From Centipeda periodontii DSM 2778 (GTDB lineage: Bacteria; Bacillota; Negativicutes; Selenomonadales; Selenomonadaceae), in assembly GCF_000213975.1 (NCBI RefSeq), contig NZ_GL892076.1, positions 2,677,595-2,741,594 of the forward strand: a stretch of DNA of 64,000 nt, in the 5' to 3' direction. The notes under the pieces are model-generated. The model did no database searches. It saw nothing but the letters and a program-made list of their open reading frames with translations, and was not told the origin of the DNA. This document shows positions 52,322 to 62,021 of the stretch, one piece after another. A program made the position numbers and the translations under genes. The first letter of the stretch is position 1, and every line of letters starts with the position of its first letter.

Positions 52322-53456
52322 ATGGAGGAAGTACGAACATGCAATCCGACAAACGACGTGGTGTTCAAATTTGTCTTTGGGCGCGAAGAACGAAAGCGTA
52401 TTACACTTTCGTTTATTAATGATGTTTTGGGGCGCAATGATGAGGACGCCTTCGTCGATATTCAAGGAATCGCTGATAAAATGAAGTCCGTCAGATTGGC
52501 GTAGATTTTTTCGTCCGAACAAGGAGGCGAACCGGACGCATAGCCAAAGCTATGTGGAGGATTTGCCGACGAAGTGCGGGCAAAAAAGATACGTCAAGAT
52601 GGCGGTGCTGAATTTATCAGTGCTTCCTTAGTTTCGGAATACAGAACTCACGCCCGATAAGCTCTTTGACAAACTGGGGCGACTCGACGTATTCGGCATT
52701 CTGAGCGATGGCACGCGCGTCGACATTGAGATGCAGGTCATCAACCATATGAACATGGAAAAACGAAGCCTGTTCTATTGGGCGCATATGTATCTGCATT
52801 TCGATGCACTCCGTATAGGTGCGGAGTACGGAACGCTGAAACCTGCGATCGCGATCAACATTGTACGCTTTTGCTTTTTACCGCAGGAGGACCCCCATTC
52901 CCGCTATGTAATCTTCAATCCCGAGACGGGACATCAGCTTTCCGATGATATGGAGCTGCATTTTTTGGAGATCCCGAAGTACCGGAAGAAAACGGTTGCC
53001 AAGATGAACCGCATCGAGCGATGGCTGGCGTACTTCGCGGATACACTGAGCGAACACGAAAAGGAGGAGATGAAAATGGCAGCACCGGCCGTAAGTGAAG
53101 CGATTCAAGCGACAGAAACATTCCTAATGGATGAAGCGGCATACCAAAACTATCTTGCGCGCGAGTCAGCCATTTGGGACTATAATACCGACGTCCGAGA
53201 AAATCGACGGCGCGCACGGGAGGAAGGACATGCCGAAGGGCTGATCGAGGGGCGTGCCGAAGGACGTGCCGAAGGACGTGCCGAAGGGCGTGCGGAAGGA
53301 CATGCCAAAGGTCTAATCGAAGGAGAACACCATGCTGCACTTCGAATTGCGCGTATGATGCTTGCCGCGCATAAGAACGTCGCCGAGATCGAACAACTAT
53401 GCGGTCTGTCGCGAGATGAAATCCTCGCATTACAGAAAAACAATCCAAGCATGTGA
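52322..53456 (+). pseudogene. Rpn-family (PD-(D/E)XK nuclease transposase family) gene split by a MITE
   Basis: The 5' part (CNPTNDVVFKFVFGREERKR, SFINDVLG) ends at DIQ (codon 52463-52465). The 3' part starts FRNTELTPDKLFDKLGRLDVFGILSDGTRVDIEMQV and lies one frame over. Removing 166 bases (the 162-bp element plus 4) joins DIQ to FRN in frame and gives a 322-residue Rpn protein. The RVDIEMQ motif holds the D/E-x-Q of the nuclease. The C-terminus has a tandem AEGR repeat. GAGGAGG precedes ATG 52322. The gene is interrupted, although the 3' half could still be translated alone. Confidence 0.85.
52466..52627 (+). mobile_element. MITE-like palindromic element (family A), copy 7, inside the Rpn gene
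   Basis: 162 bp, nearly identical to the copy at 15272, with ends GGAATCGCTGATAAAATG and AATTTATCAGTGCTTCC. Flanking tetranucleotides are TCAA and TTAG (not identical). The frame change across it equals 162+4 bases, which supports insertion with a 4-bp duplication that has since diverged. Confidence 0.9.
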
Positions 53457-53503: not shown

Positions 53504-53568
53504 TTGCTAAGTCACCCTCTTCATGATATAATCTCTACAATATAGGAGATGATGGAAGAGGGTGACTT
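53504..53568 (+). promoter_or_regulatory. Recombinase promoter with flanking 14-bp inverted repeats
   Basis: TTGCTA (53504-53509), 17 bases, TATAAT (53527-53532). The -10 box lies between AAGTCACCCTCTTC (53509-53522) and its exact inverse GAAGAGGGTGACTT (53555-53568). The right arm overlaps the first codons of the recombinase gene. It could be an operator, recombinase core sites or an invertible segment. Confidence 0.6.
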
Positions 53569-54682
53569 TTTGGCGGGAAACAAGACCTATCGCAGAGGCG
53601 GTTCGCAGGAAATGGGCATTCCTGCGCGGTGTGCGGAAACCGCCCCCGGCAATGTGCGCCGTATGGGCGAGGTATCCATGAGCGTACGGCAGGACGCCAT
53701 TACGCCCGAATATTTCATCACCCATTTCTACGAATACCTTCCGCGCTACATCGCGGGCGGTGCGCCCACAGCGGACACGCGCGACACGTACGAACTGGCG
53801 ATTCGCCTCTTCCTCCACTGGTGCATGGAGCAGGGACTCCACCCGCTCAGTGACGTACACGATTACCAGATTCGCGTCTACATGGAGGAGATGCGCACGC
53901 GTGGCTACAGCGCGGCAACGCTCATGATCAAGGGCGCGGCAATCCGTGCCTTTTACAAGGTTGCACAGCGCCTCTCCTTCATCGCTGAGAATCCCTGCGC
54001 CGATCTGCAACTGCGCAATCCGCAGCACCTCGACGAGGACTATAAATATCTCACCATCGATCAGATCAAGGAGATCTGCGAGGGGCTCGCGGCGGACAAG
54101 AACGCCCTGCGCCGACTGCGCAACCTCCTCATCGTCTACCTCATGGGCGTCGAGGGACTGCGCGTCGTCGAGGTCATGCGCCTCTCGGACGAGGACATCG
54201 ACTGGCAGCGCGGGCGCATCGAGATCCGGGGGAAAGGGCATGCGGGGATCATCTACCCATGCGAGGAGACGTTTCAGCTTCTCAAAGCGTACATCGAAAC
54301 GCGCGGTGCCATACCGCCCGAGAATCGTCTCACACCGACCGTCATCTCGTGTTCGCCGAACAATCGGAACGGGCGCATCACGCGCGTCGGCATCCGCTAC
54401 GTCATCAACAAGGCACTGACGGATGCAGGGCTCAAGCAGCCCGGCTACGCGTGTCATCTCTTTCGCCACAGCTGCGGCACAAACCTCTATCAGGAGACCA
54501 AAGACCTGCGTGTCGTGCAGGAGACTCTGCGCCAGCGCAGCCCCAAAGTCACCGCGAAATACGCCCACGTTCACGATCGTATGGAGAAACGATATACCGG
54601 CGGCATCTCGCCGGGGATGAACATGGGGGCTGTGCAGGATGTGGCAACAGCAGAATCCGCACAAAATATGAAACGGCAGTGA
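53549..54682 (+). CDS. Tyrosine recombinase/integrase (XerC/D-like)
   Basis: A 377-residue (or shorter, from TTG 53570) site-specific recombinase. An N-terminal SAM-like core-binding domain (about 50-150) precedes the catalytic domain (about 165-365). Catalytic residues seen are Arg in VEGLRVVEV, Lys in EIRGKGHAG, H-x-x-R in HLFRHSCGT and the nucleophile Tyr in VTAKYAHVHD. The second His of the usual LGH motif is replaced (LRQ). There are no phage genes nearby; it may be a standalone or mobile-element integrase. Confidence 0.88.
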   Translation: MMEEGDFLAGNKTYRRGGSQEMGIPARCAETAPGNVRRMGEVSMSVRQDAITPEYFITHFYEYLPRYIAGGAPTADTRDTYELAIRLFLHWCMEQGLHPLSDVHDYQIRVYMEEMRTRGYSAATLMIKGAAIRAFYKVAQRLSFIAENPCADLQLRNPQHLDEDYKYLTIDQIKEICEGLAADKNALRRLRNLLIVYLMGVEGLRVVEVMRLSDEDIDWQRGRIEIRGKGHAGIIYPCEETFQLLKAYIETRGAIPPENRLTPTVISCSPNNRNGRITRVGIRYVINKALTDAGLKQPGYACHLFRHSCGTNLYQETKDLRVVQETLRQRSPKVTAKYAHVHDRMEKRYTGGISPGMNMGAVQDVATAESAQNMKRQ

Positions 54683-57468: not shown

Positions 57469-58620
57469 TCATGCTTTTGAATGCGGTTTGATAATCTCCA
57501 TAATATGCGCAGCAAAACGCGCAGGCGCATATTCATCGGCAGCACAGTGAAGTGCTTCATGCCAACGAGGCGCGCGGCTGTCATATTCGTTGATGAATGT
57601 CTCAAGCGCCGCCCCGAGTGCCGTCATATTCCCACTGGGGAACGTCATCCCTATCGAAAAGCGTTCAAACACCTCGGGATTCATGTCGTCGCTCGTGAGG
57701 ACGGGCTTTTGAAAGCCGATTGCCGTGAAGAGCATCGCCCCCCAGTGGTAGCGGTAACGCGGTGCAGAGTACGGCAGAAGAAGCGCATCCATATCTGCAA
57801 TGGCACGCTGCCACTCTGCTCCGATCAGCCCGCGATGCAGGAAGGTTATGCCCTTTCCCTCGTGCGCCGCAATGATGCGCTCGAACTCCGCCGCATCCTC
57901 CGCGTGCATGGTCGAACCCTGCACCATGAGACGAACAGGCCGCGTATAGTTCCCCGCAAGATAAACGTTCAGAAGATCTTCCAGGCGCTTTTCCCTGCGA
58001 AACTGCCCAAAGAAACCGATGGTGATCGGCTCATCTGCTGCTACAGGCGAATGCGGTACAACTTCGATGTCGCGCGGCACGAACGTCGGCGGCGGCATCA
58101 GCCGAATATTGGGACGTTGTTCCCCCAAAAGAGTGTTTCCAAAAGTCAGCACAACGGGGCGAATGTTCGTATATTTTGCAAGCGCATCCGCAGCCCCAAG
58201 AAATTTCGAAGCCTCGCTCGGATTGATGCCATGCTGGATGAAGACGACGGGAACGGGCGAGCGGCGCAGAACGCTCTGTCGCAGTGCACGGAGATAACGA
58301 TAGGTCGAGGTCGGAACGATGAGCGCGTCAAACGCCCCTCCCTTCGCAGCCTCATACAGCGCACGATACCACCCAAACCGCCGCCGTTCACGTTGCACAG
58401 AGAGCAGCATTTTTCGAATCCCGCGTGCATTCGTGTAGAGCACCGGTGCCCCGGACAGATATTGCACGGGGACATGATAATCCATGCCGAATTGAAATCC
58501 CTCAGGTACATAGAACACAATCTCATGCCCGAGCGCCTTCAGCTCATCCACCAGAATACGGTCAAAATCGACCTCATGCCCGCCGGGGGTCATGATGTTT
58601 TCAAATATGGCGATTCTCAC
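57469..58620 (-). CDS. Glycosyltransferase, GT-B fold (GT4-like)
   Basis: A 383-residue protein starting MRIAIFENIMTPGGHEVDFDRILVDELKALGHEIVFYVPEG (key: TPGGHEVDF). The C-terminal domain has ITIGFFGQFRREKRLEDLLNVY and the donor-site region MDALLLPYSAPRYRYHWGAMLFTAIGFQKPVLTSDD (cited in part). It resembles GT4 enzymes but lacks a clear EX7E glycine-rich motif. It is in the LPS operon, directly downstream of the ATPase/nuclease-like cassette. Confidence 0.8.
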   Translation of the reverse strand: MRIAIFENIMTPGGHEVDFDRILVDELKALGHEIVFYVPEGFQFGMDYHVPVQYLSGAPVLYTNARGIRKMLLSVQRERRRFGWYRALYEAAKGGAFDALIVPTSTYRYLRALRQSVLRRSPVPVVFIQHGINPSEASKFLGAADALAKYTNIRPVVLTFGNTLLGEQRPNIRLMPPPTFVPRDIEVVPHSPVAADEPITIGFFGQFRREKRLEDLLNVYLAGNYTRPVRLMVQGSTMHAEDAAEFERIIAAHEGKGITFLHRGLIGAEWQRAIADMDALLLPYSAPRYRYHWGAMLFTAIGFQKPVLTSDDMNPEVFERFSIGMTFPSGNMTALGAALETFINEYDSRAPRWHEALHCAADEYAPARFAAHIMEIIKPHSKA

Positions 58621-58631
58621 GTCACACCCCC

Positions 58632-59258
58632 CTATACAACACCTTGTTCTTTCAAATAATCTTCGAACTCCACCTGATTCAGTGTATGCACCTGACGAAA
58701 CAGATAGCCCTTGAATCGATCCAATCCGAAGAGGACAATACGTCTATTTGCCCAGCCTCTGGCTGCCTTATAAATCATCGTTCGATGCAATGACTCTTGA
58801 ACGTTTTGCCGCTCTAATCCTTTTCTCGTTTGCGGAGTAGGACATCTTTCATCGTACTTTTGTTTATTATAAACCAGAATATAGTCCATATACTTTCGCG
58901 TATAAGAAATATTCTGCTTAAAGTCCGAACGATACCACGAAAGATCAAATTTATCATCAAAAATCAAGAGCAAGCTATCATATAGCTTAAAAATAATCTC
59001 ATTATTTTCAGGAGCTCCTATTTTCCCATTCTTGAACTCAATGAATACAATATGATCTTCGTCCAGCCATAAGGCATCATTGGAGCAGGGGGTTTGTGTC
59101 AACTGCAGAGCGCAGTTCTCAACATACCAATCCTTCAGTCCGTCAAAATCAAAGACCTTAATCGAGCTCTCGCACATATATGCTTTTTTAGCCGAATCGA
59201 ATGAAATGTCATGAAGCGTTTTGCAACAACTTTGAAAATGTAAAGGCATTATCCCCAT
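58632..59258 (-). CDS. PD-(D/E)XK-like nuclease candidate, partner of the AAA ATPase
   Basis: A 208-residue protein that I cannot assign to a named family. SNDALWLDEDHIVFIEFKNGK reads as a PD-(D/E)XK nuclease core: Asp61 in SNDAL, then E74-x-K76 after a hydrophobic strand, followed by a helix (IIFKLYDSLLLIF). A C-terminal basic part has YKAARGWANRRIVLFGLDRFKGYLF. ATG 59258 has GAGG 11 bases upstream; a TTG overlapping the ATPase stop would add three residues. It is encoded immediately after the ATPase with the same AT-rich composition. It may be the effector of a two-gene defence system (inference). Confidence 0.6.
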   Translation of the reverse strand: MGIMPLHFQSCCKTLHDISFDSAKKAYMCESSIKVFDFDGLKDWYVENCALQLTQTPCSNDALWLDEDHIVFIEFKNGKIGAPENNEIIFKLYDSLLLIFDDKFDLSWYRSDFKQNISYTRKYMDYILVYNKQKYDERCPTPQTRKGLERQNVQESLHRTMIYKAARGWANRRIVLFGLDRFKGYLFRQVHTLNQVEFEDYLKEQGVV

Positions 59259-59263
59259 AGGAT

Positions 59264-60532
59264 TCAAGACCTCATGCGAAGTTCTGCGCGTAGATTTTCC
59301 AATATCTGTACAGGTGCAGACATCTTCTCATAGATTTGATCGAGTTCACCAGAAACATCAATGAACGACACTCTCTTACCATCATTTTTAGACAGATAGT
59401 AGTGTGACTTTTCTGCAACTCCATACTTACATGCGTATAACTCGATTGCATCGAGAAAAAAAGGACTATGCGTTGTAATGAGTACGGTCAGATTGAACTC
59501 TTTCTGGAGCAGGACAAGAATCTCTGCATAACGTAGCTGCCATTCAGGATGGAGATGAACCTCCGGCTCATCCAGAATAAGCACACCTTTTTCATGAAGC
59601 GTACCATTTTCAAGCAGACGCTTCAATATGGCAAAGGATTTCATTCCTGCTGACCAGTTTTCTACGTTAAGAGGCTGATCTTGCCCTTCCGTCTCCAAAA
59701 CAAAACGCCGCCGATTACGCGTCAGATTGCCGGGTACAATCCGCTGAAACATGGAAAATATTTCAGCCATTTTTCTTTTTATCTCAAGTCCCTCAATCAC
59801 TCCGGGACGCTCATCTGTCTCCAGATATTTAAGCAGCCCTTCTCTGAGAGGATTATTTTCTATCCCAAGAACTGCGAGTCTCATCTGAAAACACTTGTCA
59901 ATCAAAAAAGGATCGTCCACGTAAATGGCATCTTCAAGCAATTCGATTTCACTTCGATATGCTTTGCATTCATTCCTGTGGAACATCACATTCTTCGATT
60001 TTCCTTGAACATACAACGATATCTCTGCCTCTACATCATCATAGACAGAGTTGATTTGCCCTGCAAATATTCTAGAAAACGCATTTCCGACAAGAGATTT
60101 CTCGATTTCGCTATCAGAGGGTTCCAATGAATCTTCAATCTTAAACCGGAGATCCTGCTTTTCCTCCTCTAACAGATCAATATGCAGTTCCTCTTCAATA
60201 TTATGCAGGAGGTGTTCATACCAAGACTGCACTGATTTCACATTGGTGTCAAGACCATGAAAAAGCTTCGGCATCCCCTCCATTTCCATCATTCGGAGCA
60301 ACTGAAAACGTTCACTGTCACGCCTTAAAAGAACAGAGAAAAAGTCTCTTATCACATTTTTTCTTTCCTCCAGCACCTGCTGCGGCATATTTCTGAGAGC
60401 GTGAAACAATGTAAACAGAACTTTGCCAATCGTACTTTTCCCCGTATTGTTGTTTCCGGCAATGACAGTCAATCCATCAAAGTGAATCTCCGCTTCTTTA
60501 ATTTTTGCAAAATTCTTCAGTACTAGTTTCAT
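59264..60532 (-). CDS. AAA family ATPase (AAA15/OLD-like, defence-associated type)
   Basis: A 422-residue SMC/ABC-like ATPase. Walker A GNNNTGKST (26-34), a helical insert (about 45-270), an ABC-like signature NWSAGMKSF (292-300), Walker B VLILDEPEVHLHPEWQ (317-332) and the H-switch TTHSPF (353-358). This order is that of AAA15/AAA21 ATPases found in OLD-family nucleases, Septu, Gabija and related antiphage systems; no Toprim domain is present. It starts only 3 bases after the gmhB stop and overlaps or abuts the nuclease-like gene. It is more A+T rich than the surrounding LPS genes. Confidence 0.82.
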   Translation of the reverse strand: MKLVLKNFAKIKEAEIHFDGLTVIAGNNNTGKSTIGKVLFTLFHALRNMPQQVLEERKNVIRDFFSVLLRRDSERFQLLRMMEMEGMPKLFHGLDTNVKSVQSWYEHLLHNIEEELHIDLLEEEKQDLRFKIEDSLEPSDSEIEKSLVGNAFSRIFAGQINSVYDDVEAEISLYVQGKSKNVMFHRNECKAYRSEIELLEDAIYVDDPFLIDKCFQMRLAVLGIENNPLREGLLKYLETDERPGVIEGLEIKRKMAEIFSMFQRIVPGNLTRNRRRFVLETEGQDQPLNVENWSAGMKSFAILKRLLENGTLHEKGVLILDEPEVHLHPEWQLRYAEILVLLQKEFNLTVLITTHSPFFLDAIELYACKYGVAEKSHYYLSKNDGKRVSFIDVSGELDQIYEKMSAPVQILENLRAELRMRS

Positions 60533-60535
60533 TTG

Positions 60536-61060
60536 TTATATCCATTCATTGTATCTAGGAGATTCCACCGCCGCCTGCACGCAGTCGAGCAGACTCCCGC
60601 CCGTGTAGCGTACGCCTCGCACACCCGCACTCTCAGCGGCTTCGATATCGCGCGCGCCATCGCCAAAGAGGTACGAGGCAGCGGGGTCGATATCATGCTC
60701 TCGGATGGCGCGCAAGATCATGCCCGGTGCGGGCTTGCGGCAGTCACAAGGCTTCCTGTAGGCGGGGATTTCCGCCTCCGGATGGTGGGGACAGTAATAG
60801 AACGCGTCGATGTGTGCGCCGTGCTTTGTAAGCTGTGCATTCATCCAGTCGTGCAGACGCAGCACGGCGGCTTCGTCGTAATAGCCGCGTGCAATGCCGC
60901 TCTGATTCGTGACGACGACGACGATGTAGCCGTGTGCGTTCGCCCAGCGGATCGCCGCAACCGCGCCCTCCACCCAGATGAATTTTTCCGGCTCGTAGAG
61001 ATAGTCCACATCCTCGTTGAGCGTGCCGTCGCGGTCGAAGAAGATCGCCTTATTCGCCAT
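60536..61060 (-). CDS. gmhB: D-glycero-beta-D-manno-heptose 1,7-bisphosphate 7-phosphatase
   Basis: A 174-residue HAD phosphatase of the histidinol-phosphatase-like subfamily. KAIFFDRDGTLNEDVDYLY (nucleophile Asp), VVVVTNQSGIARGYY, the zinc loop CPHHPEAEIPAYRKPCDCRKPAPGM and SYLFGDGARDIEAA are characteristic. It makes heptose 1-phosphate for ADP-heptose. It overlaps hldD by 11 bases. Confidence 0.94.
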   Translation of the reverse strand: MANKAIFFDRDGTLNEDVDYLYEPEKFIWVEGAVAAIRWANAHGYIVVVVTNQSGIARGYYDEAAVLRLHDWMNAQLTKHGAHIDAFYYCPHHPEAEIPAYRKPCDCRKPAPGMILRAIREHDIDPAASYLFGDGARDIEAAESAGVRGVRYTGGSLLDCVQAAVESPRYNEWI

Positions 61061-62021
61061 AGGAGAAGTATCCGCCCGCCTTCAGGAAGTCACAGTACTC
61101 CCTGACCGCCTCCTCCATCGGGGTAAAGCCGCCGTCGTAGCCCGCCGCGAGAAGTGCTGTTGTATCTGCCTGCGTATAGTTCTGATACTTGCCGCGCAAG
61201 ACCTCCGGGAAGTCGCGGTAGACGATCTTGCCCTTGCCGAGCGCGGCAATGACGGCGTTTGCCGCCTCGTTGTAGCTGTGTGCGACGCCCGTACCGCAGT
61301 TGTAGACACCGCTCTCGCCACCATGCTCGAAGAAGTGGAGATTCACGCGCACAACATCGCCGACATAGACGAAGTCGCGGCGCTGCTCACCGTCCACGAT
61401 GCCCTCCGTCCCGCGGAAGAGACGTGCCTCACCCATCTCCATGATCTGATGATAGAGCTGATAGAAGATGGACGCCATCTTTCCCTTGTGATGCTCCTGC
61501 GGTCCGTAGACATTGAAGTATTTCAGTCCGACAATGGGACTGCGCGCCTCGGGAATCACCTGCCGCACATAGCGATCAAATGCGAGCTTCGAAAATGCGT
61601 AAGGGTTGAGCGCGTCCTCACATTTCCCACCCTCGGTGAAGCCGTTCTTTCCACCGCCGTAGGTCGACGCAGAGGAGGCATAGAAAAACGGGATGCGCGC
61701 CCCCATTGCAAAGTGCAGGAGCGCCTTGGAGTAGGAGTAGTTGACCTTCATCATGTAGTTGACATCGTACTCCATCGTGTCCGAGCATGCGCCCTCATGA
61801 AAAATCGCGTCGATATCCGTGCCGTCGAAGTCCCCCTCCTCGATGAGGTGGAGAAAGTCGTCCTTCTGCTGGTAGTCGATGAAATGCAGCCCGCGCAGAT
61901 TCTTGTAGTTCTCGCCGTCCTTCAGATCGTCGACGATGAGGATGTCCTTGTGCCCGCGCTCATTGAGCGCATGAACAAGGTTACTGCCGATGAATCCGGC
62001 GCCGCCGGTAACGATAATCAT
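61050..62021 (-). CDS. hldD: ADP-L-glycero-D-manno-heptose 6-epimerase
   Basis: A 323-residue SDR-type epimerase. The NAD(P) motif VTGGAGFIGSNLVHALNERG (4-23), IFHEGACSDT, the YxxxK in NPYAFSKLAFDRYV, KYFNVYGPQEHHKGKMASI and RDFVYVGDVVRVN are HldD/RfaD hallmarks. It makes ADP-L-glycero-D-manno-heptose, the sugar donor for the LPS inner core. It overlaps hldE by 4 bases. Confidence 0.95.
   Translation of the reverse strand: MIIVTGGAGFIGSNLVHALNERGHKDILIVDDLKDGENYKNLRGLHFIDYQQKDDFLHLIEEGDFDGTDIDAIFHEGACSDTMEYDVNYMMKVNYSYSKALLHFAMGARIPFFYASSASTYGGGKNGFTEGGKCEDALNPYAFSKLAFDRYVRQVIPEARSPIVGLKYFNVYGPQEHHKGKMASIFYQLYHQIMEMGEARLFRGTEGIVDGEQRRDFVYVGDVVRVNLHFFEHGGESGVYNCGTGVAHSYNEAANAVIAALGKGKIVYRDFPEVLRGKYQNYTQADTTALLAAGYDGGFTPMEEAVREYCDFLKAGGYFSYGE

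Follow-up and report, generated by a model that had tools for sequence, protein, structure and literature searches.

Two adjacent genes that lie between gmhB and a glycosyltransferase gene in the 64,000-nucleotide stretch of Centipeda periodontii DSM 2778 DNA that was analysed here (the window) probably belong to a published defence family, the 'OLD-ABC ATPase + Novel REase' operons, of which WonAB is a tested relative, and would act by a WonAB-like abortive infection; we give this reading a probability of about 0.77. According to PMC12137116, operons of this kind were found in silico by Krishnan et al. in 2020, and the example that is modelled there comes from Anaerovibrio lipolyticus. They are rare, being present in 0.96% of genomes (as the family is cited in PMC12137116 and PMC12409358), and 'OLD-ABC ATPase+Novel REase' is the subclass name used in PMC12409358. 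The sequence-only reading had known of no named system with exactly this pair, which did not hold, because the published operon fits and WonAB is its tested relative as described in PMC12137116. The window pair is a useful new example of a described, little-tested kind of system and not a new class. It adds a well-bounded and easily cloned example to the family that combines an ABC-ATPase sensor with a nuclease, for which two tested relatives, WonAB and PD-T4-4, were found, and we infer that the window copy defends its host against phages.

Table 1. Genes of the cassette and its two flanks in the window
Feature	Position	Strand	Basis
OLD/AAA_15-type ABC ATPase, 422 aa	59264..60532	(-)	Pfam, conserved columns, predicted model
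Probable PD-(D/E)XK nuclease (partner), 208 aa	58632..59258	(-)	ATG start; triad, predicted fold
gmhB-like HAD phosphatase, upstream flank	60536..61060	(-)	Pfam, congener comparison
GT4-type glycosyltransferase, downstream flank	57469..58620	(-)	Pfam, congener comparison

On the minus strand, gmhB is followed after a 3-bp gap by the ATPase gene, then by the partner gene and, after an 11-bp gap, by the GT4 gene (Table 1), and the coordinates, order and spacing that had been read from the DNA initially were exact. An alternative start of the partner, a TTG at 59267, would give a protein of 211 aa and overlap the ATPase stop; the ATG at 59258 was preferred because a GAGG was seen by eye upstream of it. 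The cassette, which had also been described as visibly more A+T rich, has a GC content of 0.407 compared to 0.566 for the whole window and is its most A+T-rich 1.9 kb, as none of the 621 sliding 1.9-kb windows was lower in GC. The values were 0.388 for the partner gene and 0.416 for the ATPase gene compared to 0.53-0.61 in the nine flanking genes that were measured, and GC3 was approximately 0.42 in the cassette compared to 0.58-0.77 in nine flanking genes. Two congeners that bear the cassette showed the same pattern (0.42-0.45 compared to 0.56-0.65 in the neighbours that were measured). A simple scan of positions 58400-61200 revealed no terminator-like sites and, on the coding strand upstream of the ATPase gene, no promoter-like sites. 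A 16-nt direct repeat with imperfect copies (81%) is present on either side of the cassette, at 58574 inside GT4 and at 60718 inside gmhB; as an insertion border it looks like chance, and no convincing border repeats were found. The lack of a terminator, of a coding-strand promoter at the upstream border and of convincing border repeats makes transcription from the host operon likely, and the cassette is probably transcribed together with gmhB.

The comparison with the congeners and the deviant composition support the initial view that a two-gene cassette was inserted between gmhB and a glycosyltransferase gene. In three congeners (G029, G030 and G033), the GT4 start follows the gmhB stop after 18, 13 and 27 nt, respectively, and the junction therefore exists without the cassette; these three empty sites offer a clean native comparison. 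Within the genus, gmhB is present in all 14 genomes and the pair in three, each time at the same gmhB junction, which fits an old residence as well as a recent gain. In the other two carriers, G025 and G036, gmhB again lies directly before the cassette, but another glycosyltransferase gene comes after it. In G036, the sequence beyond the cassette is, from the GGAGGTGCTC leader on, the one that directly follows gmhB in the cassette-free G034. The final codons of the window gmhB are unlike those of the congeners at this junction. It is worth mentioning that the gmhB frame beside the cassette in G025 (L079 6154-6732) lacks the usual stop, extends out of frame into the beginning of the ATPase gene and has 192 aa compared to the usual 165-175.

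Such a position could also mean that the two genes belong to the LPS locus of the genus, have a role in the surface polysaccharide and were placed there by function. All three carriers in the genus having the pair directly after gmhB aligns well with this possibility, as does the placement of two relatives from outside the genus between polysaccharide or glycosyltransferase genes (L009 and L019). However, the other 11 of the 14 genus genomes have gmhB without the pair, which elsewhere was found between glyQ and glyS, next to nrdD or to restriction specificity genes, and after aspS-like genes, and neither protein matches a carbohydrate-enzyme family in Pfam; we consider a role in LPS highly improbable. 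A housekeeping LPS pair in particular is largely refuted by this distribution. The presence of the pair was sporadic beyond the genus too, as the sequence-only reading had supposed: two scans found it in six and seven, respectively, of the 189 genomes of the family sample, and in the phylum sample it was found in eight of 398, counting the genome of the window itself and one partial match (G247, a third of the model only). This spread is not that of an LPS housekeeping pair.

The ATPase matched the Pfam families AAA_15 (1.5e-18) and AAA_21 (7.6e-18), and no Toprim family of Pfam matched it at E 1 or better, which is in agreement with its first description as a defence-type AAA_15/AAA_21 ATPase that has Walker A/B and H-switch motifs and no Toprim. 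Its Walker A (G31, K32, S33), ABC signature (S294, G296, K298), Walker B (D321, E322) and H-loop (H355) motifs are conserved across 42 aligned ATPase sequences. The C-terminal extension is short, the protein ending 67 residues past the H-loop histidine, and conserved, with I400, Y401 and P407 being nearly invariant in the ATPase alignment (A6 was made from 42 references, without L036; A7 without L007 and L041; A8 without L007). The predicted model had a pLDDT of 88.2 and aligned at Z 15-18 with the heads of SMC, Rad50 and PtuA, among which an SMC head ranked first.

The partner very probably has a PD-(D/E)XK fold, as suggested by its predicted model together with the triad, the weak structural matches and the weak PADLOC matches of a few relatives. 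The residues D61, E74 and K76, which had been named beforehand as its active site, are invariant in all 46 aligned sequences, the window's included, while D39 (45/46), K91 (45/46) and D21 (44/46) are nearly so. The alignment thus points to a predicted active site of D61, E74 and K76, perhaps with K91. It was made from 48 references without L032 (cut), L036 (near-duplicate) and L038 (truncated) (alignment A5). Part of its rows was recruited by a pattern containing EFKNG, and therefore E and K were partly selected for in those rows; the rows from the genus/family and phylum genome scans, which were chosen without this pattern, also keep the triad. The AlphaFold model of the partner had a pLDDT of 88.6. 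Its 17 best structural alignments reached Z 5.7-4.5 with an rmsd of 3.5-4.6 over 105-133 residues, and all of them are with proteins that we take to be PD-(D/E)XK nucleases (Cdn1, McrC, FokI, BspD6I, BstEII, Card1, PspGI, Can2, EcoO109I and Bse634I). Rows 18-20 were unrelated SpoIIAA-type proteins (Z 4.5-4.4) with a lower rmsd. No structural match had a Z of 8 or above; according to the guidance of the tool, values below 8 can mean a common arrangement, and a best Z of 7-8 is typical of models that lack a clear match. Foldseek gave no match to the partner model at E 0.001, and its best rows were bunyavirus cap-snatching endonucleases (E 0.06 and up). Because of the weak Z, the lack of a Foldseek match and the SpoIIAA-type rows, the fold call rests on the motif and on a run of weak matches. 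The idea that the partner is a PD-(D/E)XK nuclease was thus upheld in that the best matches of its model are such nucleases and weakened in that none of them exceeds Z 5.7.

At the sequence level, neither Pfam nor PADLOC matched the window partner at E 1, NCBIfam gave a single chance-like match (E 0.16), and a search of solved structures with the partner profile gave a best E of 0.31. Such genes are therefore easily left as hypothetical. For the 46 partners together, the Pfam matches were weak and scattered among the 25 of 29 families that were listed, and in PADLOC (limit E 1) HEC-02B was matched by nine (best 8.4e-7), CARF-PDDEXK by two (best 6.7e-4) and Cas4 by three (best 0.0073).

The same structural matches would also suit a complex of the McrBC or Mre11-Rad50 kind that restricts or repairs DNA, in which the ATPase head would load on DNA ends and the nuclease would trim or cut DNA, perhaps in normal repair as well. 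The alignment of the ATPase with the SMC and Rad50 heads, SMC being the best, and the matches of the partner, which are mostly DNA nucleases and include McrC, are consistent with such a complex. Its rare and sporadic presence, however, argues against housekeeping repair, and there is no long coiled coil, as the longest helix between residues 49 and 156 of the ATPase model has 22 residues. We regard a complex of this kind as unlikely.

Two features of the 'OLD-ABC ATPase + Novel REase' family were found in the window: an OLD-type ABC ATPase without a fused Toprim, and an adjacent gene for a probable variant PD-(D/E)XK nuclease, whose fold matches are weak (Z of 5.7 or lower). The likeness to the published operon thus lies in the two genes, one for an OLD-type ABC ATPase and the other for a small nuclease with a variant restriction-enzyme fold. 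Anaerovibrio also carries a pair of the window type (Anaerovibrio sp. JC8, L010); this pair (L006 = L010) is homologous to the window pair, with an identity of 38% for the partner and 36% for the ATPase. The kinship to the A. lipolyticus pair and to WonAB runs only via this congener and via two pairs of the same layout on an Acinetobacter and a Klebsiella plasmid. Compared with the partner profile, the partners of the plasmid pairs reached an hhalign probability of 96.9 (E 1.9e-10) over 157 columns, and the alignments of their ATPases span only 28-31% of the window ATPase. On account of the Anaerovibrio sp. JC8 pair and the profile match of these gammaproteobacterial plasmid partners, we filed the window pair in this family, from whose published operon it differs in that the window copy lies inside an LPS operon and shows no control signals of its own. 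Pairs of an OLD-ABC ATPase and a PD-(D/E)XK enzyme were also described in BREX-type loci (PMC12839542), and the OLD-ABC/nuclease family as a whole is called as yet uncharacterised in PMC12137116.

According to the same text, WonAB consists of an OLD-type ABC ATPase and a PD-(D/E)xK-variant nuclease, both of which are needed for protection against phages; it comes from the WASA-1 prophage of Vibrio cholerae and is reported mainly from Gram-negatives (PMC12137116). WonAB depends on residues of the ATPase as well as of the nuclease, acts by abortive infection and causes an inhibition of translation, and the authors suspect that its target is RNA of the translation machinery (PMC12137116). Compared by description, the window pair has the same layout as far as described and a probable PD-(D/E)xK partner with a key lysine. 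Additionally, the distance from the catalytic E to the H-loop H is 33 residues both in WonA (E300, H333) and in the window ATPase (E322, H355); this equal spacing and the conserved C-terminal extension fit a shared mechanism, though they are no proof of it. WonAB differs from the window pair in being experimentally proven and prophage-borne.

Among the PADLOC models, the ATPase matched HEC-02A best (3.9e-25) and then PD-T4-4_A (8.2e-24). HEC-02 is a candidate system, and nine of the 46 partners match its HEC-02B model; the window partner itself has no HEC-02B match, and with 337 positions, the HEC-02A model does not reach the length of the window ATPase. One model that is named HEC-02B matches the ATPase (1.6e-20), and therefore the HEC-02 labels are mixed. 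PD-T4-4 is called similar to WonAB in organisation (PMC12137116); at the sequence level, PD-T4-4_B is absent among the 12 PADLOC families matched by the 46 partners at E <=1. Both HEC-02 and PD-T4-4 are probable relatives of the window pair. The initial statement that Septu, Gabija and PARIS have other partners was borne out, as the partners match neither PtuB (HNH) nor AriB (Toprim) in PADLOC and no helicase gene lies beside the pair. With PtuA of Septu and the retrons, the ATPase model aligned at Z 15.3-17.2 and in several rows end to end; membership in Septu was rejected, since the partner is PD-(D/E)XK-like and not HNH, and PtuB is not among these 12 families. PARIS and Gabija share the use of an OLD-class ATPase as the sensor, but their nucleases are Toprim proteins, and the window proteins match no Toprim family in Pfam. 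For PARIS, AriB (Toprim) is not among the 12 families either and the window partner matched nothing in Pfam or PADLOC, while for Gabija, there is no Toprim on the ATPase, and the neighbours are gmhB, the partner and GT4, without a GajB-type UvrD-like helicase.

Mostly by analogy with WonAB, the ATPase would dimerise, hold the nuclease on its C-terminal extension and serve as the sensor and activator, so that an infection cue sensed by it would activate the nuclease. The nuclease, as the effector, would cut a nucleic acid that is needed by both phage and host, possibly RNA of the translation machinery or DNA, and phage production would stop at the cost of the cell. It is also conceivable that the genes form a selfish or stabilising toxin-antitoxin pair, in which the ATPase holds a toxic nuclease in check and there is no dedicated phage sensing, as the overlapping genes, the sporadic spread and the deviant composition would allow. 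However, the gene order of the window pair, with the larger gene, the putative sensor, in front, is not that of most toxin-antitoxin pairs. Overproduced WonB is toxic, as expected of a toxin, but the nuclease without WonA is not, and the authors therefore reject simple sequestration by WonA (PMC12137116). A toxin-antitoxin role is in our view quite improbable.

Defence by a WonAB-like pair agrees with how the two genes occur in other genomes. The expected co-occurrence was evident: the ATPase gene lies directly upstream of the partner gene on the same strand in 49 of the 50 distinct loci (counting that of the window), and the exception starts 15 bases from a contig end. Five repeat loci were left out of this count and near-identical pairs such as L034-L036 were kept. 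With mechanical longest-frame starts, the two frames overlap in 42 of the 49 loci. The ATPase frame is shorter than 300 aa in six of the 49, of which L017 and L040 are cut by contig ends and the others look split or broken. In L024, L026, L030 and L053, a short or split ATPase frame lies beside the partner frame; these loci may be decaying copies or reflect errors of sequencing. Scanning 84,980 species genomes with the EFKNG-containing pattern revealed 38 loci, mostly in Bacillota, three of which are the G009, G012 and G039 loci of the family scan (Anaerovibrio and Mitsuokella among the Selenomonadaceae). The carriers outside Bacillota were Desulfovibrio and a relative, Leptotrichia, Treponema, Brachyspira, Fibrobacter, Flavobacterium, an elusimicrobium and an aminicenantes genome. 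Further loci were found in the family and phylum samples, on two viral contigs and in one record called a phage; a tblastn search of plasmids with two partners and a single-sequence scan of viral contigs with the partner gave no matches. The record L007 (MT835532.1), which is labelled Bacteriophage sp., has a complete pair beside ORFs that by eye are ParB-like and relaxase-like, and may be a plasmid or a conjugative element. A branch of the pair with a short ATPase (318-322 aa; L048-L051) was found in one family of the same phylum and, by size alone, may correspond to PADLOC HEC-02.

Pfam gave names to neighbours of the pair in 19 loci, for a total of 30 proteins and in some loci for one side only. 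In eight of these loci the neighbours were defence-like or belonged to mobile elements (L008, L011, L015, L016, L028, L037, L044 and L055), while the other 11 had housekeeping or other neighbours and no defence genes beside the pair. The neighbours of some relatives include type I restriction specificity genes, a zeta toxin, another AAA_21 ATPase, transposases and a recombinase. At E 1e-10 in PADLOC, type I restriction subunits, mad proteins and AriA-model ATPases had 3-4 members each among the 25 of 194 families that were listed; the PADLOC and Pfam tallies covered 134 of the 143 chosen ORFs, nine being omitted for size, with 25 of 194 and 25 of 162 families listed, respectively. The ORF after the pair in G169 (L099) looks, by eye, like a type III restriction subunit.

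Tight nesting, defined as having an ORF of the same strand no more than 120 bp away on each side, was observed in five of the 34 loci with both neighbours in reach. Pairs are nested between glyQ and glyS in Leptotrichia (L033 4713-6564), between a flippase gene and a pglD-like gene in Mitsuokella (L009 4680-6534), between two GT2 genes (L019 4689-6543) and between an M24 peptidase gene and a methyltransferase gene (L043 4644-6414). The nesting of some copies in housekeeping operons raises the testable question of how the cassette arrives and is expressed. It is possible, albeit doubtful, that the mostly-Bacillota branch is a distinct type within the OLD-ABC/PD-(D/E)XK family, which travels as a bare, promoterless two-gene passenger between the genes of operons (gmhB/GT, glyQ/glyS, flippase/pglD-like and others) and has its own nuclease target. 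If so, the expression and perhaps the trigger of the passenger pair would be tied to the transcription of the host operon.

A tyrosine-recombinase-like gene (Pfam Phage_integrase) is located at the end of the LPS cluster (window 53549-54682, plus strand). It is present at 81-93% identity in 10 of 13 LPS loci of the genus and is therefore no mark of recent integration. An ORF at 52731-53456 (plus strand) has a repeated EGRA-type stretch near its C-terminus and by eye resembles the PD-(D/E)XK transposase (PDDEXK_2) family.
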